Assembly: GCF_900111885.1 (NCBI RefSeq)
Contig: NZ_FOKG01000014.1
Coordinates: forward strand, 1 to 64,000
DNA length: 64,000 nucleotides
From: Amycolatopsis marina
GTDB taxonomy: Bacteria > Actinomycetota > Actinomycetes > Mycobacteriales > Pseudonocardiaceae
Direction: 5' to 3'
Every line of letters starts with the position of its first letter. Position 1 is the first letter of the stretch. The notes under the pieces were generated by a model. It saw nothing but the letters and a program-made list of their open reading frames with translations. It ran no database searches and had not been told where the DNA came from. A program made the translations under genes and the position numbers. Positions 2,050 to 33,571 of this stretch are shown here, in pieces.

Positions 2050-2084
2050 GGCCGGGCGACGGTGAGGCACTCATGGGGCGACAC
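2050..2084 (+). promoter_or_regulatory. Triple 11-bp direct repeat, copy 1 (candidate operator)
   Basis: Three consecutive 11-bp units lie 68 bp upstream of the XRE-TPR start: GGCCGGGCGAC, GGTGAGGCACT and CATGGGGCGAC. They match the pattern (A/G)TGnGGCG seen on the minus strand at 25316-25360, 28000-28044 and 33527-33571, with TGAGGC always in the middle unit. This copy is the most diverged and lacks a clear flanking CGCTCTGG block. Confidence 0.6.
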
Positions 2085-2151
2085 CGGCCGTACGCTGCGG
2101 AAACGGGCGAGTACTGTGCGCTATGGAGGGACCGGAAGAAGGGGACGCGCG

Positions 2152-3432
2152 ATGGCGGCACGGCCACTCACTCCGCTGGCCGCTGCTCGCGAAGCCGCCA
2201 GCTACACCCAGGAAAGCCTCGCCGTCACGCTGAAGGTCGAGCGCACCACCATCGGCCGATGGGAACGCGGCGTCCAGTCGCCCCAGCCGTGGCAGCGGCC
2301 CGGCCTCGCGCGCGCCCTGCAGGTCTCTCTCGAAGAGTTGGACGACCTGCTGCGCCGCACCGCCCGACGCTCCAACAAGCCCACCTCAGCTGCGGTCCTG
2401 GCCTCGGCACCGATCGGCGTCGAGCTGGTCCCGCCGGCACCACCGACCAGCGACAGCCACCAGCGCGAACCCGTCGCCGAGGTCGACGTCATCCACGCCG
2501 CGATCCCACGCCTGCGCCGCGCCCTCGACCGACTGGACCTGCCCGACGACGGGTACACCAGGACCCCGGCTGGCCTACACGGCGACATCTCCCGCGCCAG
2601 CGACGACCGGCTGCAGTCCCGCTACGGCAACCTCGCCCGTCGCCTGCCCGACCTCATCGCCGAACTCGCCCGCGCCGGCCAGCTCGGCGACGTCGCCGGT
2701 CGCCGCCACGCCGCAGCCCTGCTCACCCTGGCGCTGCGTGCCGCCGACGGGGTGGCCTTCAAGTTCGGCTACCTGGACCTGTCCGCGCGGCTGATCGACC
2801 TGATGCGCTCGGCCGCCCAGCTCGCCGAGGACCCACTGCTGCTGGCCACGGTGGCGTACGTGCGCACCGAGACCTTCTTCGCCAACGGCGACCTGGACAC
2901 CGCCGCCCGAGCCCTCGAACTCGCCGCCGACCACGTACCCGACCTCGACACCGCCTCGGCCTCGGCCGCCTTCGGCGCCCTGCACATGCGCGCCGCGGTC
3001 GTCGCGGGCCGGGCTGGCAAGCCCGATCGCGCCGCCGACCACCTGCGCGAAGCCCGCCGCGCCGCAACCGCCGTCCCCGAAGGCGTCTACCAGGGCACCG
3101 CGTTCGGGCCGGCCTCCCTATGCATCCACGAACTCGCCGTCGCCGTCGAACTGCGCGATCCTCTGGGCATCGAACGGGCGGCGGCGTGGCACCCGCCCGA
3201 CAACCTGCCCGCCGAACGTCGCTCCCACTACTTCATCGACCTCGCCCGCGCCCAGCTCACGCTCGGCCGTCACGAGGACGCCTACCTGTGCCTGCAAGCC
3301 GCCCGCCAGGCCGCGCCCGAGCACACCCGCACCCATCCCCAGGTCCGCCATTCGCTGTCGACCTTGCTGCGTACTCACAGCGCCCCGAGCACGGGACTGC
3401 TCGACCTCGCCGCCTGGGCTCGTGCTCGTTGA
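2152..3432 (+). CDS. XRE-family helix-turn-helix regulator with TPR-like C-terminus (copy A)
   Basis: 426 aa. The N-terminal XRE HTH spans residues 10-55 (SYTQESLAVTLKVERTTIGRWERG), and a long alanine-rich, helical-repeat (TPR-like) domain fills the rest. The start is the ATG at 2152, preceded by AAGGGG; an earlier ATG at 2122 is possible. It is strongly similar along its whole length to the minus-strand protein at 23955-25253. Proteins of this architecture usually act as transcription factors whose TPR half senses a small ligand or peptide. The triple repeat immediately upstream is the obvious candidate for autoregulation. It converges on the HAD gene with only 15 bp between stops, as in copy B. 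Confidence 0.85.
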   Translation: MAARPLTPLAAAREAASYTQESLAVTLKVERTTIGRWERGVQSPQPWQRPGLARALQVSLEELDDLLRRTARRSNKPTSAAVLASAPIGVELVPPAPPTSDSHQREPVAEVDVIHAAIPRLRRALDRLDLPDDGYTRTPAGLHGDISRASDDRLQSRYGNLARRLPDLIAELARAGQLGDVAGRRHAAALLTLALRAADGVAFKFGYLDLSARLIDLMRSAAQLAEDPLLLATVAYVRTETFFANGDLDTAARALELAADHVPDLDTASASAAFGALHMRAAVVAGRAGKPDRAADHLREARRAATAVPEGVYQGTAFGPASLCIHELAVAVELRDPLGIERAAAWHPPDNLPAERRSHYFIDLARAQLTLGRHEDAYLCLQAARQAAPEHTRTHPQVRHSLSTLLRTHSAPSTGLLDLAAWARAR

Positions 3433-3447
3433 TGCCCGGCCGGACGT

Positions 3448-4092
3448 TTAGTGCGGCGCCAGCAGATTGGGCAGGTCGTGCAGGGAGTCGATCACCCAAT
3501 CGGCGTCGCGACGCACCACCGGGTCGTCAGCCCAGAGGTAGCCCCACGGGCCACGCCTGATCAACGCCGTGCGGAACCCCGCCGCCTTCGCCGCCACCAC
3601 GTCGTTGTCCCGGTGGTCACCCACGTACACCGTCTCGCCGGGTCCGTCGGGCACCATCTCCGCGACGCGCGCGAAGAACTCGAGCGAGGGCTTGGCGACA
3701 CCCCACTCGCCCGACGTCGCGATCTGGTCCACCGGCAGGCCCAGCGCACGCAGCAGCTCGGCAGCGCGGGAGGTCTGGTTCCCGGCCACCCCCACCCACA
3801 AGCCGAGCTCCCGCAGCCGCGCCAAGCCGGGCCGGACGTCGGGGTAAAGGTCGTTGTCCTCGATGTGCTCACCCAGTCCGGCCTCTTCCCGTAGCCGCCG
3901 TTCGCGGGCAAGGTCGAATCCCGGCTTGAAGTACTGGAACGTCTCGGCGTTGTCCCGGCCGGCAGCGGTGACCGCACCCAGCACGGTCGAGAAGGTATGA
4001 CGTGGCACGCCGATCCAGTCGGCCCACGCACCCCACTCGCGCGAGTCGTCCAGCAACGTCTCGCCCACGTCGAACACCACCGCGGTCACCAT
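3448..4092 (-). CDS. HAD-superfamily hydrolase (copy A)
   Basis: 214 aa. Motif I reads FDVGETLLDD, so the nucleophile Asp is present and the usual second Asp two positions on is Glu. Motif II is VAGNQTS, a Lys lies in GVAKPS, and motif IV is VYVGDHRDND. This is the phosphatase/dehalogenase-like subfamily with a helical cap. It is the same length as, and closely similar to, the protein at 23299-23943. The DxGET variant of motif I is shared by both copies, so the enzyme may be a phosphatase with altered proton donor. In both clusters it sits tail-to-tail with the XRE-TPR regulator. The substrate is unknown. Confidence 0.85.
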   Translation of the reverse strand: MVTAVVFDVGETLLDDSREWGAWADWIGVPRHTFSTVLGAVTAAGRDNAETFQYFKPGFDLARERRLREEAGLGEHIEDNDLYPDVRPGLARLRELGLWVGVAGNQTSRAAELLRALGLPVDQIATSGEWGVAKPSLEFFARVAEMVPDGPGETVYVGDHRDNDVVAAKAAGFRTALIRRGPWGYLWADDPVVRRDADWVIDSLHDLPNLLAPH

Positions 4093-4264
4093 GCTCCTAC
4101 TCCTACGTCACCCACGATCACCCCGCCACAGAGGGTCTTGCGGCCCGCACCGCCCCGCTGACCTCGCCGCCGCGGAAGCCGGTCGAGGCGCCGCGTGGTC
4201 TGCCGCCACACCGGCCACGCAGCCTGCACCGACGTGGGCAGATCGGGGCTGCCATCCTGAACCG

Positions 4265-5128: not shown

Positions 5129-5204
5129 CCCACCTCGCCGCGCTCCACGGCAACGGTCAGGCCGCGCCTCTGCCTGACACCGAGGTCGCAGACCGGCGAC
5201 GAGA

Positions 5205-5869: not shown

Positions 5870-7470
5870 ATGTGGGTGTTGATCCACTTCGAGAGGGACG
5901 GTGGCGTGGCGGGCTGGCGGGTGTTCTGGGTGCCGCAGGATGCGCTGCGTGGCGGGGTGCGACGACAGGCGCTGGCGGGCTGGGCGGATCTGGCGGCGCG
6001 CGAAGACGAGGCGGGCGTACGGGCGGGGGATCCGATCTTCTTGTCGCCGGAGTATCGCGTGGATCCGCTGTTGAGTTTGTACGGGCGGTCGAAGCGGTTC
6101 CGCGAGTACACGACGGAGACGCGGCGGAACTACGCCACGGACATCGGCTTGTTTCTGACGTTCTTGTCCGTTCGCGGTCGGGTGTGGACTGCGGCGAGCG
6201 AGAGGGATGTGGAGGATTACGAGCATTGGCGCCGGTTCGCGGAGCGGAATCCTGCGCGGGTCGGGGGTTCGAAGTGGGATCGCGAGTTGGCGGCGTTCGC
6301 GAGCTTGTACCGGTGGGCGGTCAACAACCGTCACGTGCGGCGCAGCCCGCTGGCGATGAAGCAGGTGGTGGGTCGTGAGGGTGCGGTGTTGACGGTGCCG
6401 GCGGCCAGGGCGAAGGACGCGCGGCCGAGCAATGTGCACTGGCTGACGCCGCGGACGTGGCGGCGGTGGATCGAGGTCGGGCTGCGTGGGCATTCCCGTG
6501 ACGGAGTTCCGGAACATGGCTGGGTGGGTCGGCTGGAAGACCGCAACGTGGCGTTCGTGCGGCTATTGGTCACCTCGGGGCTGCGGCGGGCGGAGGGCGG
6601 GTCGTTGCTGACGTTTGAGGTGCCAGCGCGGCAGGTGGAGGGTGCCCGCTATTACCGCGGCAAGGTCGCTGCCGAGGTGACGCGGTCGAAGAAGGCGCGC
6701 ACGTTCTACGTCGCCGCAGACGCGGTCGGGGAGATCGAGGCGTATGTGGAGTCTTCGCGGGCGTGGGCGGTGCGCCGAGCGCAGAAGAAGGGGCGCTACG
6801 ACCGGCTGCCGGGCAGGCGGGTGGTTGTCGAGGTGACCAGGGGCCGCAAGCCGACGGTGCGCTGGCGTGACGAGGCCGGCGTCACTGGTGAGCGAGGGTT
6901 GGATGATCTGACGGTGCGGGAGCGGATGACGCTGTTCGCTGAGGGGCCGCGGGGGTTGGAGCCGTTGTGGTTGTGGCTCAATGAGCAGGGCCTGCCGTTT
7001 CAGGTGCATTCCTGGGAGGGGTGTTCACCGCCGCGAACGGGCGCTGCGAGCGGGTGCTGTCCCCGCCGAACCGGATGGGCCTCGATCCGCATCAGGTGTT
7101 CGCTCCGTACGCGACGCCGCACTCGGCGCGGCACTCGTTCGCGCTGTTCATGTTGGTGGTGTTGAACACCCTGATGGATCTGAAGTACGGGTTGAGTCCG
7201 GAGGAGCGGCGGGATTTCCGGCAGCTGTACGGGGATCCGTGGTTCATGGTGCAGTGCTTGTTGGGGCATTCCTCGCGGGAGACCACTGTGGACCGGTATC
7301 TGGCGCCCGTGGCGGACCTGCAGTTGCGGTCGATGCTGGCCGGCGCGGCTGAGTCGGCGGCGGCACCGATGCCCGAACTGGACGTGGTGTTCGCGCGGAT
7401 CGCGCGGGAATCGGAGGGCATCCAGGACCTTGATGACTGTATGCGGCCTGCGGGCGGTGGGATCGCGTGA
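5870..7470 (+). pseudogene. Tyrosine recombinase 1, with a frameshift
   Basis: The first frame runs 5870 to about 7018. It carries an SAM-like core-binding domain and the first catalytic Arg (TSGLRRAEGGSL). The homologous reading then continues in another frame from about 7021 to 7470, with HSARHSF (the HxxR box) and LLGHSSRETTVDRYL (His and nucleophile Tyr). The switch lies at the G-run in TGGGAGGGGTGTTC (about 7006-7020), where one base appears to be missing. All catalytic residues exist but in two frames. It is therefore a pseudogene, a programmed frameshift or a sequencing error. The stop overlaps the next recombinase start as GTGA, so this was the first gene of a coupled recombinase operon. 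Confidence 0.75.
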
Positions 7471-9257
7471 GTCACAGCATGAGTCGTCGAGGGCGCCGGG
7501 CGTCCCTGCCGTCGGCCGGCCATGCCCGCCCGGAGTATGTCGCGGCGGATGGGCTGGTCGTGCACCACTACAACAGCGCTGGCCGGGTCCAGGAGTACGA
7601 CTTCGCTGCACTGCCGGTCGCCGAGCCGCTGCAGCGCTCGCTGGCCGCGCTGTTCGCTGCCCGCTGCACACCGCACCATTGGACTGTGCACGCCAGTTCC
7701 ACGATGTATTGGCGGCAGCTGGAGACGTTCACGATCTTCCTGTCTCAGCAGGCGCGGCCACCGCGTGACGTGGACGAGCTGACCGCGAGTCTGATCGAAC
7801 GCTGGCGGGAGAGCGTGCTGGCCACTGCGGGTGGCTACACCACGTTCACTGCGGTCACCAGCCTGCTGCGCGGCGACCCCCGGCTGCAGACCGGGCCGAT
7901 CGCGGACACGCTGGCCCGGCGCGCCCAGCGACCCCGCAGTGGGATCCAGTCCTACAGCGAGGCCGAGTTCGACCGGGTCAAGCTCGCCGCTCGGCGCATG
8001 TTCCGTGCGGCGTTGCTGCGGATCGAGCACAACGCCGCCCACCTGCAGCGCTGGCAGGCGGGCGAGTTCACCGAGGGCAGCCGCGACTGGGTGCTCGGCG
8101 AAGCCTTGGACGTCCTCGCCCGCACCGGCGACCTCATCCACTATCCCGGCCGCCGCGCGAGAGGCGGGCGGGGCATCGTCTACAAGTACCGGAAGGCGTT
8201 CGGGGGCATGGCCGCGGCGGTGACGTGGCAGCGGCTGTTTCTGTCCCGTATGGAGGCCACCGCGCTCGGGGTGCTGCTGCTGGCGGAGTTCGGTTGGAAC
8301 CTCTCGGTGATCGACCGAGCCGCGATACCCCGAGCGTTACCCGACCCTGGCGAGGATGGCCGGCCGACGTACCGCATCCCGATCGAGAAACGGCGCCGTG
8401 GTGCGGGCCGCTTCTACGAGACCCGCAACGTCACCGATGATGGTGCCGCCTCGCCGGGCCGGCTGATCACGCAGGCGCTGGCGGCTACTCGGTTTGCTCG
8501 TGCCGTCGTCGCGGACCGCGCCCCGGATGTCGATCTGCTGGTCGTCTGGCGCACGCACGTCGTCGGCCGGGAACGCGCCGACGGGGACCGGCAGCCACCG
8601 GTCGGTCCGTTCCATTTCGGGGTTCATCGCGACGCCGGTGCACGGTGGGCACGCACGGTGGGGTTGCGCGGGTCGCCGTTTCAGCGGGGACGGCAGACGG
8701 TGAACGCGCTCAATCGCCGCGAGCCGGGCCAGAACAGCCAGGACACGCACGACCGGCACTACGTGCTGGTCGACAAGCGGGTGCAGTCCGAGGCTGTCGC
8801 GATCATCGCGGCCGGTGCGGACGAGGCGACCGCGCACGCGCGTCGAGCGGTGCTGGTGGCTGAACTCCGGGACGCGCCGGACCCCGGCGATGTAGAGACC
8901 GCGACGGCGGACTGCGCCAACATCGAGCACAGCCCCTACCCGGCAGCTGGCGGTGGTTCTGGTGGTGGTTCTGGTGATCGATGTGGGGCGTCGTTCCTGA
9001 TGTGCCTGGGTTGCGTGAACGCCCGGATCCATCCCGGCCACCACGGTCGGCTCGCCCACTTGCACCACGCGGTGAGCCACCTGCGCTCCGTGCAGGCGCC
9101 GACGGTGTGGGACGCGGACTGGGGCGAGACCCACGCCCGTTTGGACGACCTGAAGACCAAGCTCGGCGCCACCGTGTGGACACGAGCGAAAGCCCAGGTC
9201 ACCGACACTGACCGGGAACTGATCGACCTCATGCTGACCGGAGACCTCGACACGTGA
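7467..9257 (+). CDS. Large recombinase-like protein 2 of a multi-recombinase element
   Basis: 596 aa. GTG start overlaps the preceding stop. The central part has a lambda-integrase-like layout and ends with the box GQNSQDTHDRHYVLVDKRV, in which the final His and Tyr correspond to the end of the recombinase active site. A Gly/Ser-rich linker then precedes a Cys/His-rich tail (CGASFLMCLGCVNARIHPGHHGRLAHLHH) that may bind zinc. It matches the middle gene of actinobacterial three-recombinase mobile elements, comparable in role to Tn554 TnpB. Such proteins act together with the first and third recombinases in integration. It overlaps the next gene by GTGA. Confidence 0.7.
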   Translation: MSHSMSRRGRRASLPSAGHARPEYVAADGLVVHHYNSAGRVQEYDFAALPVAEPLQRSLAALFAARCTPHHWTVHASSTMYWRQLETFTIFLSQQARPPRDVDELTASLIERWRESVLATAGGYTTFTAVTSLLRGDPRLQTGPIADTLARRAQRPRSGIQSYSEAEFDRVKLAARRMFRAALLRIEHNAAHLQRWQAGEFTEGSRDWVLGEALDVLARTGDLIHYPGRRARGGRGIVYKYRKAFGGMAAAVTWQRLFLSRMEATALGVLLLAEFGWNLSVIDRAAIPRALPDPGEDGRPTYRIPIEKRRRGAGRFYETRNVTDDGAASPGRLITQALAATRFARAVVADRAPDVDLLVVWRTHVVGRERADGDRQPPVGPFHFGVHRDAGARWARTVGLRGSPFQRGRQTVNALNRREPGQNSQDTHDRHYVLVDKRVQSEAVAIIAAGADEATAHARRAVLVAELRDAPDPGDVETATADCANIEHSPYPAAGGGSGGGSGDRCGASFLMCLGCVNARIHPGHHGRLAHLHHAVSHLRSVQAPTVWDADWGETHARLDDLKTKLGATVWTRAKAQVTDTDRELIDLMLTGDLDT

Positions 9258-10513
9258 CCGCCGCCCTGGACCTCAGCCGCCACTACCGTTATCTCCTGCC
9301 GCTGCCGGAACCTGGCACTGCGGTGGTCCTGCCGCCGTTCGTCGTGGCGATGCACGCCCATCTCAACGCCCGCTATGCCGACGCCGCCTGGCCGCTTGGC
9401 CCGCTGACGGCCAACCCCAGCGCGTACCGGAGGGTGATCTACTGGCGCAACTGTCCGGCGGTGTTCGCCGACGAACTGCGGCTGGCCTCTTGGACGATGA
9501 TCAACGGCCGCTTGCGGCCCACGTTCCTGCGGGCTCGCGGCGCCCGGCTGCGTTCCCGCCTCAGCGCCGCACAGATACACGAGACGATCTCGGCCTGGAT
9601 ACGCCTGGCGAACTGGCTAGAGGCTCACGGCATCCGGCGTCTCGCCGACTGCACCACCAGTGTCCTGCACTCCTACGGGCAACATCTCCTGAGCTGCCAC
9701 ACCAACCGCAACCACACGCACAAGACGTTGGGCGCAGTGACCCGGCTGTGGGCGTTCGATCAGCTGTGCGCCCGGCCTGCCGGGATCGGGCGGCCTCCGT
9801 GGGACGAACGCGGAGCTGATGACTACCTCCCCGCCGCCACGATCACCGGTGGGGAGAACGAGACCGAGCCATTGGCCGAACAAACGATAGGCCCGCTGCT
9901 GATCTGGGCGATGCGCATGATCGACGACCTGGCCGAGGACATCCTCGCCGCCTGGGTCGAGACGCAGCGGCTGACTGAGGTCGCCCGCACCACGACCGGG
10001 ACACCGCACGGGAAAGCCGCGTTGGAGGCGTTCCTCGCCCCGCTGCTGGCCGCCGGATCGCCGTTGCCAGCCAGCCGGATCCGGGGCGAGGTTTGTCTCG
10101 CCGCGACCTACCTCAGCGGCATCACCGGAGCCTCACGCGCCCAGATCGACAAGCTGAACCAGCGCGAGGGCCTCGCGGCCGTCGCCGCGCAGCGGCCAGG
10201 GCCGTGCCCGTTGGACGTCCCGATAACCGGCCGGATCGCCGGGTTGCCGTGGCGGCAGGCTCTGGACTTCGCCGAGACACCAGTGCTGATGCGGCACCTC
10301 GGCACAGCGGCCTTCATCGTCTGCGCCTACTTGACAGGGATGCGCACCGGTGAGGTTCTGGGCATGAGAACCGGTTGCTGCCCCGACCCAGAACCCGTCA
10401 CGGACAAGAACGCGGACAGGAACAACGCCGACGGGAACGCCGGCAGGCACTTGATCCGGACGCACGAGTACAAGAACGCCATCGACGAAAGGGCATTTTC
10501 TTGCGCGTCATGA
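9254..10513 (+). pseudogene. Tyrosine recombinase 3, truncated before its catalytic C-terminus
   Basis: 419 aa with a GTG start overlapping the previous stop. The N-terminal and core-binding parts are well formed, and the first catalytic Arg is present in YLTGMRTGEVLGM. The protein then reaches HLIRTHEYKNAIDE and ends abruptly after an unrelated tail (RAFSCAS). The HxxR box and Tyr are missing, so about 250 residues have been lost. Immediately beyond the break, the frame of the next recombinase is open upstream of its annotated start. This points to a deletion that fused two recombinase genes at about 10,485-10,500. Confidence 0.7.
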
Positions 10514-10559
10514 CGATCTCGTCGCGCGCTGCGCCCACGGGGTCGGACCGATCGACGCC

Positions 10560-23954: not shown

Positions 23955-25253
23955 TCAACGTGCGCGAGCCCAGGTAGCCAGCTCCAACAGGCGGTCGTCG
24001 GGGGAGCCGTGGGTGCGCAGCAGCGCCGACAGCGTCTGCCGAACCTGGGGATGTTCGCGGACGTGTTGCGGGGCAACCCGGCGGGCGGCTTCCAGACCGA
24101 GGTAGGCGTCTTGGTGGTGGCCGAGGCGAAGCTGGGCGCGGGCCAGGTCGATGTAGTAGTGCGAGCGCCGTTCGGCGGGGAGACGGTCGGGTGGGTGCCA
24201 GGCTGCCGCCCGCTCCACCGCCGCCGGGCTGTCGCCCAGTTCGACGGCGACGGCGAGTTCGTGGATGCGGACCGACGCCGGTCCGAAGGCCGTGCCGAAG
24301 TAGACGCCTTCAGGCACCTGGCGGGCGGCTCGATGAGCCTCACCGAGGTGATCCCACGCGGCGTCGGGCTTGCCAGCGCGGCCGGCGACGACGGCGGCTC
24401 GCATGTGCAAGGCGCCGTAGGCCGCGGCGGAGGACGCCGAAGCGCCGAGGTCAGCCGACAGATCGTCCGCGGCGGCCATCAACAGCCGCGAGGCCGACGT
24501 CAGGTCGCCTGTGGCGAAGAAGGTCTCGGTGCGCACGTAGGCGACAGCGGCCACCAGCAGCGGGTCCTCGGCCGCCAGGGCGGACACGCGCATCAGGTCG
24601 ATGATGCGGGCGGACAGGTCGAGGTAGCCGAACTTGTAAGCCACGCCATCGGCCGCTCGGAATGCGAGGGTCAGCAGCGTGGCGGCGTCGCGCACCCAGT
24701 GACCGCCATCGGCGTGTGTCCGTGCAAGCTCGGAGATCAGGTTGGGCAGACGCCACGCCATCTCGACATAGCGTGCTTGCAGACGGTGCTCGATCATTCC
24801 TGCGACCTCGGCCGCGAGTTCGGCGAAGGACCGCGTCGGTCCGTCCTCGGGCAGATCGATGCTGTCGAGCGCCCGCCGCAGCCGTGGGATGGCGGCGTGC
24901 ACCGCGTCATCACCGGAGAACGTGTCGACCAACTTTGACCGGCCGAGCTCACGGTCAGCGTGAGGCAGGAATGAAGGACCGGGTGTGAAGAATGGCTCGT
25001 GGTTGGGGCTTTCGAGCGCGACCGATGTGTTCGAGCGCCGTTTCGTTCGCCGGAGTAGGTCGTCGAGATGATCTAGGCTGATATTCAACGCTGTGGCAAG
25101 GTCGGGACGTTGCCACGGTTGGGGAGATTGGACACCGCGTTCCCAGCGGCCGACGGTGGTTCGGTCCACGCCCAGCTTGTCGGCGAAGGTCTCTTGCGTG
25201 TAGCCAGCGGCGTGGCGGCAGTCGGCCAACGGGCTTGACGGTTGGGTTGCCAT
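23955..25253 (-). CDS. XRE-family helix-turn-helix regulator with TPR-like C-terminus (copy B)
   Basis: 432 aa. The HTH at about residues 8-52 is GYTQETFADKLGVDRTTVGRWERG, followed by the invariant phrase VQSPQPWQRP that is also in copy A. The rest is a helical repeat domain (PDLS... YVRTETFFATGDL... AHLHLGEAHRA-type helices). The ATG at 25253 lies 63 bp from the triple repeat at 25316-25360. It is the likely regulator of the B cluster through these repeats. One XRE-TPR protein could bind the sites of both clusters, because their HTH segments are nearly alike. Confidence 0.87.
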   Translation of the reverse strand: MATQPSSPLADCRHAAGYTQETFADKLGVDRTTVGRWERGVQSPQPWQRPDLATALNISLDHLDDLLRRTKRRSNTSVALESPNHEPFFTPGPSFLPHADRELGRSKLVDTFSGDDAVHAAIPRLRRALDSIDLPEDGPTRSFAELAAEVAGMIEHRLQARYVEMAWRLPNLISELARTHADGGHWVRDAATLLTLAFRAADGVAYKFGYLDLSARIIDLMRVSALAAEDPLLVAAVAYVRTETFFATGDLTSASRLLMAAADDLSADLGASASSAAAYGALHMRAAVVAGRAGKPDAAWDHLGEAHRAARQVPEGVYFGTAFGPASVRIHELAVAVELGDSPAAVERAAAWHPPDRLPAERRSHYYIDLARAQLRLGHHQDAYLGLEAARRVAPQHVREHPQVRQTLSALLRTHGSPDDRLLELATWARAR

Positions 25254-25315: not shown

Positions 25316-25360
25316 TCAACGCCGCATCAGCGCCTCATCGTCGCCCCACGTGCGCTCTGG
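25316..25360 (-). promoter_or_regulatory. Triple 11-bp direct repeat, copy 2 (candidate operator)
   Basis: On the minus strand the units read CGTGGGGCGAC, GATGAGGCGCT and GATGCGGCGTT. They are preceded by a CCAGAGCG block. The element lies in the divergent spacer between the XRE-TPR gene and the TPR/peptide genes. Eleven-bp spacing puts each unit on the same face of the helix. Confidence 0.7.
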
Positions 25361-25528
25361 TAGCCGACCGTAGCGGGCGATCTACTGGCGTTCGACAACA
25401 CCGACACGGCAGCGGAACTGGGGAGCCACGATTCCTGCCCGTTCATATTCGGCAACTGTTCTCCCGGAAATGACTCACTCCTTGGCAACGTCGCGCAACA
25501 AGAACGTCGTGGTGAAAGCGGGATCACC

Positions 25529-25618
25529 ATGAGCAGCACCAGGACGTACCGCAAAGACCAATCCCGTAGGGCGGCCCCTGCGCGCCTCGCTGTCGATGTA
25601 GCCGGAGCACATCAGTGA
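25529..25618 (+). CDS. 29-residue ORF coupled to the TPR gene
   Basis: An ATG at 25529 opens a 29-codon, Arg/Ala-rich frame beginning MSSTRTYRKDQSRR. Its stop overlaps the next GTG start as GTGA. No family is recognised. It could be a leader for coupled translation. A signalling-peptide role is conceivable next to TPR regulators, but there is no secretion signal. Confidence 0.3.
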   Translation: MSSTRTYRKDQSRRAAPARLAVDVAGAHQ

Positions 25619-26961
25619 CCGACCCTGGGCACCGCAACGACCTCGGCGTGAGCTACGACGACCTCGACGCCGACAACGCGCGGCTGTACCGGCTGCTGGC
25701 CGTGCACCCCGGCGCCGAGTTCACCGCCGCCCCGCTCGCCGCAGCCCTCGCCCTGCCGGTCGCCCAGGTCGAAAACGGGCTGGCCCGGCTGGCGGATGCC
25801 CACCTCGTCACCGCGGTGGCCGCCGCCCGCTACCGTCAGCACGACTTGCCGCGCGAGCACGCCCAGGTACTGGCCGAGCAACATGACGACGCGAATGTGC
25901 GCCGGGCCGCGCTGCGCAGCATGATCGAGTGGTATCTGCGACGCACCGCCGCCGCCGACATCGCGATCAACCCCCGCTCCCGGCGGTTCAGCCCGGTGTA
26001 CGAACAGTTGGACACCGAGCCGTTCGCCAGCGTCGAACATGCTCTGAACTGGTTCACCCTCGAACGGCCGAACGTGCTTGCCTCCCAATATCTCGCCGGA
26101 CAGCAGGGCTGGGACGGGCTGGTGTTCCAGCTCGCCGAGGTCGTCTGGAATCCATTGCGCCCCAGCTACTTCGCCGATGACCTAGTCCAGACGCAACAAC
26201 TTGGCATCGTCTCCGCCCAGCGCTGTAAGCACATCCTCGAAGCGGTCTTCCTCGCCCGGCTGGGGTTCGGCGAATCCAACCGCTCCCACCACGACGCGGC
26301 GATCACTGCCTGCACCACGGCGATCGAGCGAGCAACAGCATTCGGCGACAGCTGGGTACAAGCGGCAGCCCTGTCCACCCGCGCTCGCGCTTTCACCGCC
26401 GCCGGGCAACCACGTACCGCGCTGCAGGATCTCGGCAGCGCGCTGCTCCTCGACGAGCAACGCGGCGACCGCCGCAGCATCGCCTTGCGGCATCGGCGAA
26501 TCGGCCAGGCATACGCCCACCCCGAGATCGCCGATTTCCCCCAAGCCACCTGGCACCTGCGTGAAGCCGCCGAATTGATGGAGGCCCTGGGCGATGAGTC
26601 GGGCCACGCCCGAGTGATCACTTACCTTGCCGAGGTCCACGTTGCGGCCCGACAGTCGGACGCCGCCTTGTTCACCCTGCGCCGGATCGAGAACGCCTTG
26701 GCGTCCTGTGGATCGTCGCGCTACCGAGGTCACGCCTCCACCGTCATGGGTCGGGCGCACGCCCAGCTCGGCAACGTCGCGGAGGCGGAGCACTGCTACA
26801 GCAACGCACTGGGTCTCTTTGCCGACGCGGGACCGGGTGCGGCAACCGATCGCGAAGCAGTGCTGAAGCTCCGCGAGGAACTCGGAGACCCGGTGACGCG
26901 AAAGTCGCAGGTGGACACCAGCAACGTCGAAAACGAGAACATGGAAGGAAACACGAAATAG
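25615..26961 (+). CDS. TPR-repeat protein with winged-helix N-terminus
   Basis: 448 aa. It resembles the C-terminal half of AfsR/NB-ARC-type regulators. A winged-helix segment (LYRLLAVHPGAEFTAAPLAAALAL) is followed by an arm and at least four TPR-like helix pairs, but there is no P-loop NTPase domain. The GTG start overlaps a 29-codon ORF. The last residues (VENENMEGNTK) are hydrophilic. It probably works as an adaptor or sensor with the XRE-TPR regulator across the divergent promoter. It could also be a remnant of a larger STAND protein, although I see no NTPase motifs upstream. Confidence 0.7.
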   Translation: MTDPGHRNDLGVSYDDLDADNARLYRLLAVHPGAEFTAAPLAAALALPVAQVENGLARLADAHLVTAVAAARYRQHDLPREHAQVLAEQHDDANVRRAALRSMIEWYLRRTAAADIAINPRSRRFSPVYEQLDTEPFASVEHALNWFTLERPNVLASQYLAGQQGWDGLVFQLAEVVWNPLRPSYFADDLVQTQQLGIVSAQRCKHILEAVFLARLGFGESNRSHHDAAITACTTAIERATAFGDSWVQAAALSTRARAFTAAGQPRTALQDLGSALLLDEQRGDRRSIALRHRRIGQAYAHPEIADFPQATWHLREAAELMEALGDESGHARVITYLAEVHVAARQSDAALFTLRRIENALASCGSSRYRGHASTVMGRAHAQLGNVAEAEHCYSNALGLFADAGPGAATDREAVLKLREELGDPVTRKSQVDTSNVENENMEGNTK

Positions 26962-27494: not shown

Positions 27495-27902
27495 ATGCCG
27501 AGAGGAACGCTGCGTGGCTACCGCTGGGGCCACACCACGGTGGAGCCCGATCGCTACACCGGACCTGTCGCCCGAGTGACCGCTCGGTTCGCGTGTACGC
27601 GTGGGCACGAGTTCACCGTGCATTTCGCATCGGACGCGGAGCTGCCGGCGAGCTGGACTTGTCGGCTGCATGGCGTCGAGGGCTGCGCTCGACTCGGCGC
27701 CACCGCCACCGCCACCGCAGCGGGCAAGGGTAAAGGCAAGTCCCCGCGGACACATCTGACGATGCTGTACGAACGACGCAGCGTGGCCGAGCTGGAGATT
27801 CTCCTCGCCGACACGCTCGCGGCGATCCGCCGACGAGGAGGCGCGCAGCCGGGCTGCGTGCAATTCGGGGACAGGACGTACTCGTTCCGCTACGACGGCT
27901 GA
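27495..27902 (+). CDS. rbpA-like: RbpA-like RNA polymerase-binding protein
   Basis: 135 aa. It follows the RbpA plan: a basic N-terminal tail, a zinc-ribbon-like core (FACTRGHEFTVHF ... WTCRLHG), a basic linker (KGKGKSPRTHL) and the sigma-interaction helices (LYERRSVAELEILLADTLAAIR). RbpA binds RNA polymerase and group 1/2 sigma factors and stabilises open complexes. Housekeeping RbpA is normally a lone gene, and this diverged paralogue sits inside an accessory cluster directly behind a small HTH gene. It may direct polymerase to cluster promoters. Full coordination of zinc is uncertain because the second Cys pair is altered. Confidence 0.8.
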   Translation: MPRGTLRGYRWGHTTVEPDRYTGPVARVTARFACTRGHEFTVHFASDAELPASWTCRLHGVEGCARLGATATATAAGKGKGKSPRTHLTMLYERRSVAELEILLADTLAAIRRRGGAQPGCVQFGDRTYSFRYDG

Positions 27903-27999
27903 CCGTTCTCGCCCAACCGGGTTACCTTTCGGTCCTGACCGGGTGAACACGTGCCGCGCGACGCCGCTGACGTCGTGCCGCTTTCCCTGGTCAGCGCGG

Positions 28000-28044
28000 T
28001 CGACGCCCCATCCGCGCCTCATCGACGCCGCACCCACGCTCTGG
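28000..28044 (-). promoter_or_regulatory. Triple 11-bp direct repeat, copy 3 (candidate operator of the queD operon)
   Basis: Minus-strand units are GGTGCGGCGTC, GATGAGGCGCG and GATGGGGCGTC. They are followed on the plus strand by CACGCTCTGG. The element lies about 150 bp upstream of the QueD-like start, in a 293-bp spacer that otherwise holds no gene I can support. Confidence 0.7.
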
Positions 28045-28195
28045 ATAGCGATGATCACCCGTCGTTGACTTATCCGGACTGCGGCGGAAGGCACACTCCT
28101 TCCCCCTCGGCCTTCCGCCGCAGGCCACCCCAGTCCTCGTTGATGAGTACGCGCGTGCGGGAACGCGCTCGTGGTGAAAGGATCTGGCGCTCACG

Positions 28196-28759
28196 ATGCA
28201 CGGCTCGGCGACAACCGATCACGCCACCGCCTACCTGGCGAACCTCGTGACGGACGATCACGCGCCGACAGCCCACCAGATCACCATCGAGCACACCTTT
28301 GAAACCGCGCACCGCCTGCCACACCTTGGGGGCAAGTGCACCAGCCTGCACGGACATTCCTGGCGGGTCGCAGTGCCGGTGATCGCCCCAACCCTGAGCG
28401 ACGATGTCACCGTCGTGGAGTTCGGTGCCCTCAAAGCCGGAGTCCGGCAGTGGATCGACACCTACCTCGATCACGGCACCATGCTCGGTATCCACGACCC
28501 GCTCGCTGTGCACCTTGCCGTAGCGAAGTGCAAGGTCTTCCGCTTCGGCGCTGATCGCTATACGACAGTCGAGGATGCGGAACTGCTGGCTGCCGACTTG
28601 GCCTGGCCAACCGTCGAAGCTGTCGCGGTGTTGCTACGACGCGTGAGTCAGGCTGTTCTCGCCACGCTGCCCTGCGCTCCCGATGCCCGCGTCGGCCGGG
28701 TGTTCGTGCGCGAAACCCACCTCAATGCCGCGACCTACGGGCCGGTGGACGCACTGTGA
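28196..28759 (+). CDS. queD-like: 6-pyruvoyl-tetrahydropterin synthase / QueD family (copy B)
   Basis: 187 aa. Zinc and active-site motifs are all present: AHRLPH, GKCTSLHGHSW (Cys plus HxH), LDHGTM and RETHLN. It has a 25-residue N-terminal extension compared with copy A; a GTG inside it (28247) would remove most of it. The expected reaction is dihydroneopterin triphosphate to 6-carboxy-tetrahydropterin. Its stop overlaps the QueE-like GTG start (GTGA). GTP cyclohydrolase, QueC, QueF and TGT are not in the window, so any queuosine-type route would have to draw on genes elsewhere. The gene set looks instead like one for a deazapurine metabolite. Confidence 0.87.
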   Translation: MHGSATTDHATAYLANLVTDDHAPTAHQITIEHTFETAHRLPHLGGKCTSLHGHSWRVAVPVIAPTLSDDVTVVEFGALKAGVRQWIDTYLDHGTMLGIHDPLAVHLAVAKCKVFRFGADRYTTVEDAELLAADLAWPTVEAVAVLLRRVSQAVLATLPCAPDARVGRVFVRETHLNAATYGPVDAL

Positions 28760-29478
28760 AGCCGCCGTTGGTGTCCGATGTGGACCGTGACCTGGTGGTC
28801 AACGAGACCTTCGGTCCGACCTTCCAAGGCGAGGGACCGAGTACCGGTCGCTACGCCCACTTCATCCGGCTGTTCGGCTGTCACCTGTCGTGCGATTGGT
28901 CCGATAGTCCGGAAACCCACGACCCCAACCGCTATGACCTCAACGCCGAACAGCAGATCCTCTCGATCGAGGACATCCTGTCCTGGCTCGCTGCCGGTCC
29001 CGCCGACCTGCTAGTGATCACCGGTGGCGAACCGTTGCTGCAGCCGCACGTTCTGGGGCGGTTGGTATGTGCGATCCGGCAGCGTGCGCTCGCCGCCGAC
29101 ATCGAGATCGAGACGTCCGGCACCATTGCGCCCACGGACATGATCACGTCGGCGGTGACACGGTTCAACGTCTCGCCGAAGCTCGCGCATTCGGGGCTGC
29201 GCCGTCATCAACGCATCCGCCCCGCCGTTCTGCGCGACCTCGCCGACAGCGGGAAGGCCATCTGGAAGTTCGTCGTCCAAGAGATTGACGACCTCGACGA
29301 GATCCAGGAACTCGTTGGTACTTACGGCCTTCACCCCGTGTGGGTCATGCCAGAAGGCACGGACAGCGCCACCGTCCTGGCACGGATGCGGATGTTGGCC
29401 GACCCGGTGCTGGCACGCCGCTGGCACCTGTCGACCCGGCTCCACACGCTGCTGTGGGAGAACGACCGTGGCCGCTGA
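28756..29478 (+). CDS. queE-like: QueE-like radical SAM protein with an altered cluster motif
   Basis: 240 aa. It closely follows 7-carboxy-7-deazaguanine synthase: NETFGPTFQGEGPSTGR at the start, TGGEPLLQP, ETSGT and NVSPKLAHS. The radical SAM motif should be CX3CX2C, but the protein has C42, C46 and Ser49 (FGCHLSCDWSDSPET; codon TCC at 28900-28902). One TGC-to-TCC change would explain it. Without the third thiolate the [4Fe-4S] cluster may be unstable or Ser-ligated, so normal CDG synthesis is doubtful. Everything else looks under selection. It is coupled to the QueD gene by GTGA. Confidence 0.85.
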   Translation: MKPPLVSDVDRDLVVNETFGPTFQGEGPSTGRYAHFIRLFGCHLSCDWSDSPETHDPNRYDLNAEQQILSIEDILSWLAAGPADLLVITGGEPLLQPHVLGRLVCAIRQRALAADIEIETSGTIAPTDMITSAVTRFNVSPKLAHSGLRRHQRIRPAVLRDLADSGKAIWKFVVQEIDDLDEIQELVGTYGLHPVWVMPEGTDSATVLARMRMLADPVLARRWHLSTRLHTLLWENDRGR

Positions 29479-29563: not shown

Positions 29564-29998
29564 ATGAGCGAACCCAACACCCCGGCCCCCGGTCCCCGCG
29601 TCGGGGTCTACGCCCTCATCGGGCAGAACGACCGCCTGCTCCTCATTGGATATCCCGGCCACGATGCACTCCCCGGCGGCCCGGTTCGCGCCGGAGAACC
29701 CGTCGAGCAAGCGCTCCGTAGAAGCCTGCTCGACCAGCTCGGCGCGACCATCGCCGAGCTGGACTTCTGCGTCGCTGTCGAGCACGGCCCCAGCGAGGCC
29801 GGCGAGCCGTCTGCCTCCGAAGTGGCCTTCCTGTTCGACGTGACGCTCACCAACCCTGACCTCCTTAACGACGCGGCACAGCCACATCGGTGGGCCGACG
29901 AACACGACCTCTCCGCCCTCCACCCTCAAGCGGTCCGGGATGAGTTGATCGCGGGCACGCTGTCGGCCGAACGCCCGTGGCGGGCGTGGACGCCATGA
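29564..29998 (+). CDS. Nudix-like protein with a degenerate Nudix box (copy B)
   Basis: 144 aa. It is the paralogue of 689-1135. It keeps PGGPVRAGE (GX5E), but the second half reads RSLLDQLGA where REUXEEXGU is expected, losing the catalytic Glu residues. The shared loss in both copies argues for a non-hydrolytic role or for an altered metal site. The ATG at 29564 is taken because the upstream frame overlaps the QueE-like gene. It lies between the QueE-like and IMPase-like genes. Confidence 0.75.
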   Translation: MSEPNTPAPGPRVGVYALIGQNDRLLLIGYPGHDALPGGPVRAGEPVEQALRRSLLDQLGATIAELDFCVAVEHGPSEAGEPSASEVAFLFDVTLTNPDLLNDAAQPHRWADEHDLSALHPQAVRDELIAGTLSAERPWRAWTP

Positions 29999-30062: not shown

Positions 30063-30404
30063 ATGACCCCAGAACAGGCAGCCGCGCTGACCGAGTTTCC
30101 CGAGCTGCAGCGGCTCATCGACCTTCGCGATGCGGGCTGGATGTTCCTTCCCACCGTCGTCGACGGCGAACTCGTCCAGGTGCACGGCGTGCGGACCTGG
30201 CCGGAAGGGTGGGCGGACGCCCTGCGTGTCCGTTACACCACCGACGCCGCTGGGCTCCGCAACGACCACACCGGCGGTATCACCTGGCAAAGAGAAGGCA
30301 CGCTCACCGAGATCATCGACGGCCTCATCGCCTTGCCCGCACCCAGCAACCGGCTCGCGCCCCGGCTCGTCATTGCCCGCGGCCCGCTGCCGCGGAGCGC
30401 ATGA
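30063..30404 (+). CDS. Conserved-looking hypothetical protein
   Basis: 113 aa, start ATG at 30063. It is compact and soluble, with the phrases LRDAGWMFLPTVVDGELVQV and VRTWPEGWADALRVRYT. I do not recognise a domain. It sits between the Nudix-like and IMPase-like genes and is missing from copy A. The Trp/Asp pattern could bind a ligand, but that is speculation. Confidence 0.6.
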   Translation: MTPEQAAALTEFPELQRLIDLRDAGWMFLPTVVDGELVQVHGVRTWPEGWADALRVRYTTDAAGLRNDHTGGITWQREGTLTEIIDGLIALPAPSNRLAPRLVIARGPLPRSA

Positions 30405-30486
30405 CCCCCGAACTTCGCCGTGAGCACCGTCCAGGTGGCTCTCCGGCGCGAAGCCCTCATCAGCAGAACCCAAGGAACGCCCGTCG

Positions 30487-31314
30487 ATGCCCTTCCCCAA
30501 TCTTGATCACGCTCTCAAGGCCGCGCAACGCGCGATCGATCTCGCCGTCCACCATGCCCTGAACCATCAACCGACCCACATCACCACCAAAGGTGACCGC
30601 GATGTCGTGACCAACGTCGACCTGGCCGTCGAAAACCTCATCCGGCACCGACTGAGCGACTGGGATCCCGCCGTCGGTTTCGTGGGTGAGGAAAACGGAT
30701 CCTCCGGTGACGAGAACACCTACTGGGTCCTCGACCCGATCGATGGCACTATCAACTTCTCCCACGGCAGCCCGCTGTGCGCGATCGCTCTCGGCCTCGT
30801 CCAAGACGACCAACCACTGCTCGGCGTCACGGCCGTCCCGTTCCTGGGGCACCGCTACTGGGCCGTCAAAGGCGAAGGCGCCTACCGAGACGGCGACCCT
30901 ATCGCCGTCTCCACGACCACCAGCCTCGACAACGCACTCATCGGGATGTGCGACTACGGCAGCGGCCCCGACGCCAGCACCCGCGACCGGCTCTGCAACG
31001 ACCTCGACCAACGTTTGACTGGCCAAGCTCAGGGAGTGCGCCGTCTGGGCACTACCGCACTCGAACTGGTCTGGGTCGCCGACGGCACCCTTGACGCCAG
31101 CATCCTGTTCGGCAACCGCACCTGGGACACCGCCTCCGGAGCGATCATCGCGCGCGAAGCCGGAGCTCTTGTCCTCGATGCCGACGGCAGCCCCCATACG
31201 ACCCGCTCCCACTGCACGCTGGCCACCACTCCTGCACTCGCGGATGTACTCGTGCCGATGATGGACATCGCCCGCGACACGAACTACTGGCCCCGACCGG
31301 CGGGCACCCAGTGA
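30487..31314 (+). CDS. Inositol monophosphatase-family phosphatase (copy B)
   Basis: 275 aa, full length for the family. The metal site is complete: GEENGSS (Glu), DPIDGTINFS (Asp, Ile-Asp, Gly-Thr) and WDTASGAIIAREAG. It would remove a phosphate from a small phosphorylated metabolite (inositol, histidinol or nucleotide type). Its stop overlaps the GTG start of the APH-like kinase (GTGA), so kinase and phosphatase are translationally coupled. Copy A of this gene is destroyed by an IS21-like end. Confidence 0.88.
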   Translation: MPFPNLDHALKAAQRAIDLAVHHALNHQPTHITTKGDRDVVTNVDLAVENLIRHRLSDWDPAVGFVGEENGSSGDENTYWVLDPIDGTINFSHGSPLCAIALGLVQDDQPLLGVTAVPFLGHRYWAVKGEGAYRDGDPIAVSTTTSLDNALIGMCDYGSGPDASTRDRLCNDLDQRLTGQAQGVRRLGTTALELVWVADGTLDASILFGNRTWDTASGAIIAREAGALVLDADGSPHTTRSHCTLATTPALADVLVPMMDIARDTNYWPRPAGTQ

Positions 31315-32303
31315 ACGCAGCGCGAGCCCTGCTGCCCGAGCACACCGATCCGGAGCACGCGACGATGGACCACCACACCATCCCGCACGACCTGCTGGCC
31401 GAGCTGCGCGTGCTGCACAGAGAACGGCCCGACGCTCTGGGCGCGGACCTGCCGGAGCACGGACTGACTCAGCTCACCGGTGGCCGCAACAACCGGGTCT
31501 ACCGCTGGAGCAGCCCTCGCGGCCCGGTGTGCCTCAAGCTCTACCGCACCGACAAACGCGACCGCGCCCGATGCGAATGGACAGCCCTGCGGCACCTCGC
31601 TGACCACGGCGTCACCGTCGCGTGCACGGCGTTGTGGCACGACCCGCATCCCGAACTGCCCGCCGTCGGTTTGAGGCTCGTGCCCGGACGGCCCATCACC
31701 GCGCTGGACACGCCACATGCCGCTCTTCAGGCGATGGTGACCGCCCTCGGCCAGATCCGCCAGGTTCCGCTCGGGCCGTTCGCCAGCCTGGGCCGACTGG
31801 ACTCGGCGAGCGACTTCATCCGACGCATCACCACTACGTGGCCCGAACAACTCCACGAGTACCCCGACGAACCGCTCAGCCGCGACATGAGCAGGATGAT
31901 CGCGAGATGGCACGACCGCGGCGACGCCACCGTGCTCGCGGAACCGGCGCCGCGTGTGCTTTCCCACGGGGACGGCAACCTCGACAACTGGCACTGGCAC
32001 GACTTCATCAGCACCATCTACGCCCTGGACTGGGAGTTCGCCGGGCACTCCGACGCCGCCTATGACGCGGCGGAACTCATCGAGCATCCCAGCGCACGAG
32101 CGGTCGAGGACGACCTGTGGCTCGCGCTCCTTCCCGAACTCGGGGTCGACGACGGCCAGGCGCGCCGCCGTTTCGCCGCCGCGCGCCGCACCGCCGCCCT
32201 CCGCTGGCTGGCCGTCCGCTGGAAACGACGCGACACCAACGTATCCGCCTTCGAGCAGCAGTTGCATCGCACCCGAAGCCTGATCGCAGGCGACCACGAA
32301 TAG
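31311..32303 (+). CDS. Aminoglycoside phosphotransferase-like kinase
   Basis: 330 aa. The APH/choline-kinase fold shows a nucleotide-binding loop (LTGGRNNRVYRW), a Lys in VCLKLYR, the catalytic loop LSHGDGNLDNW (HxDxxxxN) and the metal site IYALDWEFAG. A small-molecule or sugar kinase role is more likely than drug resistance, given its coupling to the IMPase-like gene. GTG at 31311 is the coupled start; an ATG at 31365 would omit 18 residues. Substrate unknown. Confidence 0.85.
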   Translation: MNAARALLPEHTDPEHATMDHHTIPHDLLAELRVLHRERPDALGADLPEHGLTQLTGGRNNRVYRWSSPRGPVCLKLYRTDKRDRARCEWTALRHLADHGVTVACTALWHDPHPELPAVGLRLVPGRPITALDTPHAALQAMVTALGQIRQVPLGPFASLGRLDSASDFIRRITTTWPEQLHEYPDEPLSRDMSRMIARWHDRGDATVLAEPAPRVLSHGDGNLDNWHWHDFISTIYALDWEFAGHSDAAYDAAELIEHPSARAVEDDLWLALLPELGVDDGQARRRFAAARRTAALRWLAVRWKRRDTNVSAFEQQLHRTRSLIAGDHE

Positions 32304-32335
32304 CCCACCATTCCAGCCCACACAGAGGTGTCCTG

Positions 32336-32683
32336 ATGACGAGGAAAACACAAGCTGTCTTGAGCGCACTCCTTGCCGAGCCGGACAAAGAACTGTACGG
32401 CCTGGAGATTTACGAACGAACGGGGCTAATGCCCGGAACGACCTACCCGATCCTCGTCCGCTTGCAGCACGCCGGGTTGGTGCGCTCTCGCTGGGAAGAC
32501 GCTGATCCAACCGACCCCCGCCGGCCACGCCGCCGCTACTACCAGCTCGCGGACCTCGGCATCGGCGCTGCACCAACGATGGCGGTCGAGGCGACCGGCC
32601 CGCTGGTACTCCTACGCCGCTGGCTGACCTGGACGCCACAGCCCGCTGTCCAGGTCGCCACGTCGGGCACGTCCGCGAGGTAG
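32336..32683 (+). CDS. PadR-family transcriptional regulator
   Basis: 115 aa. The winged helix matches PadR: LSALLAEPDKELYGLEIYERTGLMPGTTYPILVRLQHAGLV, followed by an Arg-rich wing RRPRRRYYQL. The usual C-terminal dimerisation helix is short and ends in a Trp-rich stretch (RRWLTWTPQ). It is 32 bp after the kinase gene and in the same operon. Confidence 0.8.
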   Translation: MTRKTQAVLSALLAEPDKELYGLEIYERTGLMPGTTYPILVRLQHAGLVRSRWEDADPTDPRRPRRRYYQLADLGIGAAPTMAVEATGPLVLLRRWLTWTPQPAVQVATSGTSAR

Positions 32684-32688
32684 TCCAC

Positions 32689-33141
32689 ATGCACCTGCCT
32701 CAGATCGATCCCCAAGCAGTAGCTCTCGGCGACGCGCTCGCCACCGCATTGGAACAAGCGGCGAAAGGCGGAGAAATCGAGCCGGTAATCCGCGCCGCAG
32801 ACAAGATCATCGCGGCCGGTCTCTATTTCGGTACGCAAGGCGAACTGGTGTCCATGATGTTGTTCCGCCTGGAACTGGCCAGTGGCGTGCGACCGCCCAG
32901 CCCCTACTACGACCTGAGCGTGCGCCTGGTCGAGGAAGCGGTGTGCACGGCCGGTGAGATGAAGGCCGCCGTGTGCGGCACCCTGCTGATGCGCGGGCAG
33001 GAACAGGGATGGCTCGAGCCCCACCTCTACGACATGCTGGCCAGCGCCGCGCACGGCCGCCCGGACTGGCAGTTGGCAATGTCGTTGATCGAACGGCAGG
33101 ACCGTGGTTCCGCCCACACGCCGCGCCCGGCGGAGAACTAA
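32689..33141 (+). CDS. Hypothetical alpha-helical protein
   Basis: 150 aa, starting 5 bp after the PadR gene. It is helical throughout, with no membrane segment and two Cys residues (AVCTAGEMKAAVCG). No family is recognised. The close spacing to the PadR gene suggests the two work together. Confidence 0.6.
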   Translation: MHLPQIDPQAVALGDALATALEQAAKGGEIEPVIRAADKIIAAGLYFGTQGELVSMMLFRLELASGVRPPSPYYDLSVRLVEEAVCTAGEMKAAVCGTLLMRGQEQGWLEPHLYDMLASAAHGRPDWQLAMSLIERQDRGSAHTPRPAEN

Positions 33142-33149
33142 CGCCGGCG

Positions 33150-33509
33150 ATGGCGGTCGCGTGGATTGTGGGTGGCTACACGCTTGGTGCACTACTCGCC
33201 GCGCTGCTGGCGTTCTTGGCCATCGCGCAGGTACGAGCATGGCGAGCCAATCGGCAAGTCTACTTGCGACCACCGGACCTCTCGCCCGCACAAGTCCGAT
33301 GGGCGAATGAAAAACGGCTCAGCGACGATCCCGAAGCGACGCTGATCATCCCCGCCGATCACCCGGACTACATCAGACCCGTGAACTGGCAAGCGTTGCG
33401 GGTACGAGGCAGACCCTGGCCGTTTCGCACAGGAGGAGGTCCGGGCGGCTTGCACACGCCCCATGCCGCCCGCAGTATCGGTCGCCGTTTCCGCCCGCCA
33501 CACGGATAG
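33150..33509 (+). CDS. Small membrane-anchored protein
   Basis: 119 aa, ATG at 33150. One strong N-terminal hydrophobic helix (residues about 3-25, IVGGYTLGALLAALLAFLAI) is followed by a hydrophilic, Pro/Arg-rich domain. It lies 8 bp after the previous gene and ends the operon. No family is recognised. Confidence 0.6.
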   Translation: MAVAWIVGGYTLGALLAALLAFLAIAQVRAWRANRQVYLRPPDLSPAQVRWANEKRLSDDPEATLIIPADHPDYIRPVNWQALRVRGRPWPFRTGGGPGGLHTPHAARSIGRRFRPPHG

Positions 33510-33526
33510 CCCGCAGGTCAAAGCAC

Positions 33527-33571
33527 TCGTCGCCGCATTGGCGCCTCACGCCCGCCGCATCGGCGCTCTGG
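33527..33571 (-). promoter_or_regulatory. Triple 11-bp direct repeat, copy 4 (candidate operator)
   Basis: Minus-strand units are GATGCGGCGGG, CGTGAGGCGCC and AATGCGGCGAC. They are flanked by CCAGAGCG on the same strand. The element lies 18 bp after one gene and about 165 bp before the plus-strand frame at 33735, matching the distance of copy 3 from the QueD-like start. Confidence 0.65.

Follow-up and report, generated by a model that had tools for sequence, protein, structure and literature searches.

The first 64,000 nucleotides of the Amycolatopsis marina contig NZ_FOKG01000014.1 (hereafter the window, which is the start of the contig labelled C9) contain two gene clusters, A and B, each with a gene for an XRE-TPR regulator, and raise the question of whether the arrays of 11-bp direct repeats that recur between their genes form an operator shared by both clusters, as an earlier note on this DNA had proposed, and, if so, for which protein and with what effect. 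The comparisons described here favour a shared operator. The array is probably the operator of the XRE-TPR regulators themselves, which would bind it as a head-to-tail row along a single DNA face and so activate the promoter of the target operon.

The element proved to be larger than had been described. The repeats stand at all four places that the earlier note listed, on the strands given there, and the CCAGAGCG block is indeed present in three of those four copies; what had been overlooked is a fourth unit, CCAGAGCGnnn, and since this is an 11-bp unit in its own right, the element consists not of three units but of 4 x 11 bp (CCAGAGCGnnn followed by three RTGnGGCGnnn units, 41 bp in total). 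Also missed was a full copy in front of queD-A (1902-1942), the cluster A counterpart, whose middle unit reads CGAGGC, so that TGAGGC is not general to the middle units as had been claimed. The first site listed earlier (2050-2084) does have conserved repeats and is only a partial copy, with 2 mismatches and without the CCAGAGCG unit; its footprint (2051-2080) is nevertheless conserved, with TACTGT behind it, in 7 A-type regulator genes (window included; three near-identical), and it is probably the autoregulatory site of XRE-TPR A. Four full copies lie in the window (Table 1), and exact full copies (CCAGAGCGnnn plus three RYGnGGCG) number five in the genome, the fifth being at C51:18863-18903 (+) with a third XRE-TPR gene downstream. 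The motif is not common across the genome: the exact three-unit pattern with a TGAGGCG middle occurs three times in the whole 7.02 Mb, all inside the window (reversed control, 0), and weaker places with 3 mismatches were found on contigs C14, C38 and C54. Within the window the three-unit pattern RTGNGGCGNNNRTGAGGCRNNNRTGNGGCG, at up to 3 mismatches, gave 5 matches, compared to a mean of 0.03 and a maximum of 1 in 100 dinucleotide shuffles. The motif is also present in homologous clusters, and hence neither of the two computational findings that the earlier note had named as refuting its proposal was obtained.

The array follows a strand rule, lying in sense to the XRE-TPR gene and antisense to the target operon, and the link to XRE-TPR genes was examined from both ends. 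Among 30 loci of the family Pseudonocardiaceae that were fetched by the motif, 17 have an XRE helix-turn-helix (HTH) domain encoded 133-336 bp downstream in sense. When genomes outside Amycolatopsis were compared, counting co-occurrence per genome and not per contig, an XRE HTH with E<=1e-14 was present in 40/41 site-bearing genomes (best E <1e-20 in 38/40), compared to 21/41 site-less genomes, hand-chosen and nearly all from the same genera (<1e-20 in 5/21). In Amycolatopsis (80 genomes, 63 of them with an HTH match of E<=0.001), 30 genes were fetched by the HTH alone; the array (<=3 mismatches) stood at 9/14 of those with the recognition helix GRWERG and at 0/16 of those with other helices. 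Some array-less GRWERG genes follow shortly after another XRE gene, as second copies (L151 and G139:C21 are examples). These associations support the XRE-TPR proteins as the binders of the array only indirectly.

To describe the promoter geometry, we used 39 sites with a first unit C[CG]AGnGCG and <=5 mismatches overall, reduced to 34 sites that are <=80% identical over 141 bp. Since these were chosen by the first unit, its constancy in the set is by construction and uninformative; the -10-like hexamer played no part in the choice. Read in target orientation, the hexamer TYNAMT begins 20 bp past the array in 20/34 sites and 21 bp past it in 9/34, and nowhere else within 50 bp, while its background is 0.1% per position and chance at 20/21 bp would account for about 0.2% per site. 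A second box, which in the same orientation reads GCAGGTCA (<=2 mismatches), lies outside the array, 9 or 10 bp from its far end, in 24/34 sites. If TYNAMT is the -10 element (-12 to -7), the first unit would span about -40 to -33, over the -35 element. Neither this fixed spacing nor the extension to other XRE-TPR subfamilies had been part of the earlier note.

Upstream of XRE-TPR genes with other recognition helices, the 4 x 11 arrangement recurs with units of altered sequence. A looser pattern, CCASRGC-N4-(NNGNNGC-N4)x2-NNGNNGC, was drawn after viewing a first set of 78 distinct upstream regions, in which it matched in sense (<=1 mismatch) at 14/38 GRWERG genes and 10/40 other genes; the reversed pattern matched 0/78 in either direction, as did the true pattern in antisense (0/78). 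Self-similarity peaked at period 11 upstream of the other-helix genes (mean 15.42 compared to 12.90-13.98 at periods 9, 10, 12, 13 and 14), and less clearly upstream of the GRWERG genes (14.87 compared to 12.95-14.37). Because the looser pattern had been drawn from these data, it was fixed and then tried on 43 further genes, hand-picked from earlier match lists, which left 33 upstream regions after removal of similar, short or unmatched ones. It matched in sense at 9/33 with <=1 mismatch and at 14/33 with <=2, the controls at <=2 mismatches giving 0/33 in antisense and 0/66 reversed, and period 11 was again the highest (15.24 compared to 12.58-13.48). TTNRNT, a looser hexamer picked post hoc, has the 20- or 21-bp distance at 11 of the 20 fresh sites (<=3 mismatches) and occurs just once at another position within 60 bp. 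The helix also goes with the final base of the unit: at <=2 mismatches this is G in 16/16 GRWERG genes compared to 4/16 others (Fisher 1.6e-5, in a test that ignores phylogeny), and in the remaining 12 genes the commonest base is A in 10 and C in one, with one gene mixed.

Three further families of the class have members with the layout (L263, L264, L267, L269, L271 and L274). It is not universal, since Streptomyces plasmid relatives of regulator B that lie behind a HAD gene (L285-L287) have no array at <=2 mismatches; on a plasmid stretch of Amycolatopsis AA4 (L284), one of three XRE genes (3513) has 11-bp repeats of its own and the other two have none. Strong 11-bp repeats of very different sequence (ACTTGGCG, TGACTGCN and CCGGCAAGAAA) stand upstream of the XRE genes L293, L327 and L284:3513, and are possibly further specificities.

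In the family as a whole, the full pattern at <=2 mismatches gave 144 matches in 57/390 genomes and 18/46 genera, compared to 1 for the reversed pattern. A few of the 144 look like chance (e.g. in G345, a genome with a single match and no HTH, and in G053 and G057), as do the matches at L207/L208 and L034. The three-unit pattern at <=1 mismatch gave 27 matches in 13 of the 80 Amycolatopsis genomes (reversed, 7). Where a genome has several matches, they are often grouped within tens of kilobases, and this, together with identical operators in different genera, suggests that the operator-bearing regions are mobile islands. Across taxa, a three-unit scan, made without the first unit, returned 83 stretches, of which 19 have the exact first unit and 3 a one-base variant; these 22 all come from Amycolatopsis, Prauserella, Crossiella, Pseudonocardia, Saccharopolyspora, Saccharothrix, Actinokineospora and Gandjariella, all genera of the Pseudonocardiales. 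In 59 of the 80 stretches examined there is neither the CCAGAGCG unit nor a related HTH (in L136 the place of the unit falls outside the stretch), and these were set aside as minisatellite or chance.

Several observations weigh against this reading. Thirteen of the 30 motif-fetched loci have no XRE HTH (L198 and L211 were mapped as facing a target, and some of the other 11 are chance-like), and in G150 and G261 the sole HTH match is on a different contig from the site. No array lies directly upstream of 5/14 GRWERG genes in the genus set, nor of 21/30 top HTH genes of site-bearing genomes (9/30 have one). The -10-like element is absent from 5/34 sites, and in the strict form TYNAMT it stands at 20/21 bp in just 5/20 fresh sites. 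The fresh set is the sole fresh test of the looser pattern, and its genes were picked by hand. As for the unit code, L245 is GRWERG with units ending in GGCA (at 3 mismatches, beyond the limit used), L269 and L270, with helices GRWERA and GRWERD and with A, were scored as other helices and blur the code, and helix and operator share ancestry, so that their association is not independent of phylogeny.

As a mechanism, we propose that four protomers would each place a Cro-type HTH in one 11-bp unit, of which 8 bp are conserved and 3 free; with one HTH per unit, the protomers would stack head to tail on the same DNA face. In the direction of the target, the first unit (which then reads CGCTCTGG) stops 20 or 21 bp short of the -10-like TTNACT and would cover the -35, and with this unit over the -35 element the regulator most likely activates by replacing the -35 and making contact with region 4 of sigma. 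The TPR domain would act as the sensor, and the regulator's own gene, on the other side of the array, is probably autoregulated. The predicted regulon in the window comprises queD-A, the TPR gene, the genes from queD-B to APH, and the 115-aa gene.

The same operator and binder might instead serve repression, the XRE-TPR protein blocking sigma at the -35 until released by a signal on the TPR domain. Many XRE proteins are repressors, and the -35 region would be covered by the first unit; yet by eye the target promoters lack a recognisable -35 and their -10 is weak (TTNACT, not TANNNT), as in activator-dependent promoters, and the 20/21-bp spacing is held tighter than simple blocking requires. 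With the array predicted to lie over the -35 as well, the target promoters are most likely activator-dependent, and repression is unlikely. It is more doubtful still that another protein is the binder, whether a SARP, a winged-helix NB-ARC/TPR protein of several islands or some other island regulator, with the XRE-TPR genes as mere frequent neighbours. SARPs do bind 11-bp direct repeats near the -10, according to the AfsR paper (PMC10936776), and an HTH_20 match was obtained for the NB-ARC/TPR protein of family F1. A SARP was set aside because none of the 17 BTAD (SARP-type) genes in this one genome lies on the site-bearing contigs C9 and C51; the lanthipeptide contig L019, mapped over 14 kb, has the array and an XRE-TPR gene and no F1 gene, and the sequence of the unit tracks the XRE recognition helix.

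It is very improbable that the arrays arose by chance or are dispersed repeats with no role in regulation. Three-unit matches do occur in unrelated phyla and many of them are minisatellite-like, but these lack the CCAGAGCG unit, and a related HTH accompanies 0/59 of those examined. In the arrays proper, the three units keep most of their 8 positions and vary in the 3 spacer bases; the fixed distance to the -10-like element, the family-wide scan and the fresh-set test all contradict chance. Equally remote is an element that acts as RNA in the leader transcript, for which the strong hairpins behind some sites might speak: the array is upstream of the -10-like element and on the strand opposite to the target operons, at the 28004 and 33531 arrays neither neighbouring gene reads it in sense, and 27900-28260, the one leader searched, has no Rfam match above the gathering score (three sub-threshold matches look like chance). 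The XRE-TPR proteins as activators bound to DNA remain the favoured explanation.

Table 1. Features of the window. Operators, promoter elements and target assignments are predictions; queD and queE are family-level names, with scores below the NCBIfam equivalog cut-offs.
Feature	Position	Strand	Remarks
queD-A	1226..1711	-	PTPS family; next genes on this strand: NUDIX (689-1165) and IMPase-family (48-710, cut by contig start)
-10-like TTGACT	1875..1880	-	21 bp past array, towards queD-A
Full operator (CCAGAGCG + 3 units)	1902..1942	+	antisense to queD-A operon, sense to XRE-TPR A; conserved in six related loci
Weaker copy, no CCAGAGCG unit	2051..2080	+	~70 bp upstream of XRE-TPR A
TACTGT, likely -10 of XRE-TPR A	2112..2117	+	
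XRE-TPR regulator A	2152..3432	+	426 aa; helix TTIGRWERG; HTH_31, HTH_3 over Pfam cut-off
XRE-TPR regulator B	23955..25253	-	432 aa; helix TTVGRWERG; HTH_3/HTH_31 over Pfam cut-off; structure model
Full operator	25320..25360	-	between XRE-TPR B (-) and TPR gene 25615 (+)
-10-like TCTACT	25381..25386	+	20 bp past array, towards 25615
TPR protein, putative target	25615..26961	+	part-length AfsR similarity, profile positions 536-682, under that family's cut-off
Full operator	28004..28044	-	upstream of queD-B operon
-10-like TTGACT	28065..28070	+	20 bp past array, towards queD-B
13-bp hairpin, start of queD-B leader	arms 28079-28091 and 28111-28123	+	
queD-B	28196..28759	+	first gene of putative target operon; family-level name
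queD-B putative operon, remaining genes	28756-29478; 29564-29998; 30487-31314; 31311-32303		queE-like; NUDIX; IMPase; APH-like
Full operator	33531..33571	-	upstream of 115-aa gene at 33735
-10-like TTCACT	33592..33597	+	20 bp past array, towards 33735
115-aa putative target gene	33735..34082	+	frame backed by third-position substitutions in two relatives

The two regulators of the window are 63% identical. The predicted structure of regulator B has an HTH at residues 8-73, a linker, and helical repeats at 105-428, with the C-terminal TPR superhelix that characterises XRE/Cro-type TPR regulators. From their adjacency, queD-A and the NUDIX and IMPase-family genes that follow it probably form an operon. 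A frame at 33709-34839 was considered as the gene behind the 33531 array and was rejected, as codon-position substitutions favour 33735-34082. Beside XRE-TPR A lies a HAD hydrolase gene (3448-4092), which also accompanies the plasmid relatives in Amycolatopsis and Streptomyces (L284-L287), and cluster B includes a gene for an RbpA-like RNA polymerase-binding protein (27495-27902) between the TPR gene and queD-B. Between the two clusters, phage-integrase-type genes (5870-7165 and 10560-12878) flank two large proteins with no Pfam match, which is in keeping with a mobile island at 5870-12878; downstream of cluster B are a TIR-domain protein (37456-38160) and, behind a 1480-aa open reading frame, a match to the C-terminal part of JetD (Wadjet) at 49338-50234.

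Hairpins with C-rich loops and stems of at most 13 bp lie directly behind the -10-like element in 12 target leaders, picked for this feature among 39 that were folded (28079-28123 (+) and 1816-1875 (-) in the window, L148, L149, two in L095, L038, L087, L097, L093, L085 and L175), with compensatory changes in 8/13 pairs. Such a hairpin may be a 5'-end stabiliser or a leader regulator; the whole 115-nt queD-B leader folds no better than shuffles (z -0.27). In other genomes, the islands near the operator at L090, L092, L094, L096 and L097 have QueC close to a short reverse-transcriptase (RT)-like protein in which FADN replaces YADD, together with two glycosyltransferases, a viperin-like radical SAM protein, a phosphoribosyltransferase, a 5'-3' exonuclease and PIG-L, and in some of them an FGE-sulfatase-like protein. 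Padloc, run on ten island proteins, matched its models for RT and QueC and gave one viperin-like match, but no nameable defence system. Next to a further regulator, XRE-TPR C (L019, L080 and L084), there is a LanB/LanC lanthipeptide operon, and the array is antisense to it.

The closest parallel is with the SARP activators. As described for AfsR in PMC10936776, these bind 11-bp direct repeats with 8 contacted and 3 free bp, as proposed for the arrays here, and the upstream repeat lies at -40 to -30 over the -35, as proposed here for the first unit; AfsR activates biosynthetic genes and has a TPR domain, a likeness to the XRE-TPR proteins. In contrast, SARPs read DNA with ODB and BTA domains from repeats 8 bp from the -10, whereas the arrays described here have four units, a Cro/XRE HTH as their proposed reader and a distance of 20 or 21 bp to the -10-like element. 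Neither the SARP BTAD nor its DNA-binding domain has a Pfam match in XRE-TPR A or B, and since the DNA-reading fold differs, the XRE-TPR regulator would work like a SARP without being one. RRNPP proteins (PlcR, NprR, Rap and AimR) are among the structure matches of regulator B, and both share an HTH (N-terminal in PlcR) and a C-terminal TPR superhelix. PlcR-type operators are palindromes, unlike the arrays. The regulator B model also matches the fold of the TPR-like sensor domain of MalT (1hz4). MalT is an activator that acts on direct-repeat boxes and senses through its TPR-like domain III, but it is a STAND ATPase with a LuxR-type HTH, unlike XRE-TPR. The helical-repeat part of regulator B matches residues 225-385 of the NsdA family profile (NF053720) at 36.6 bits, under the cut-off of 75, and XRE-TPR A has no match to it; in the part available, the main text of the 2025 NsdA paper (PMC12243394) does not contain the words motif, footprint or direct repeat. 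No operator for the XRE-TPR class was found described in the literature searched, a search whose scope excluded most subscription papers and all preprints.

With a 41-bp address and a fixed spacing to the -10, likely target operons can be listed from sequence alone, including lanthipeptide clusters and clusters with queD/queE/queC, and the array could let researchers predict the targets of a poorly understood regulator family; DNA recognition by the XRE-TPR HTH class becomes testable base by base. The findings further suggest that 11-bp tandem arrays over the -35 also arose with a DNA-binding fold unrelated to SARPs. It is evenly balanced whether the layout amounts to a general operator code of actinomycete XRE-TPR regulators, in which four head-to-tail 11-bp units, with a sequence set by the recognition helix, would have the first unit replace the -35 of a divergent promoter; such a code would represent a SARP-like geometry of activation that evolved independently a second time, on the Cro/XRE fold, and that steers mobile clusters with queD/queE/queC-type and lanthipeptide genes.

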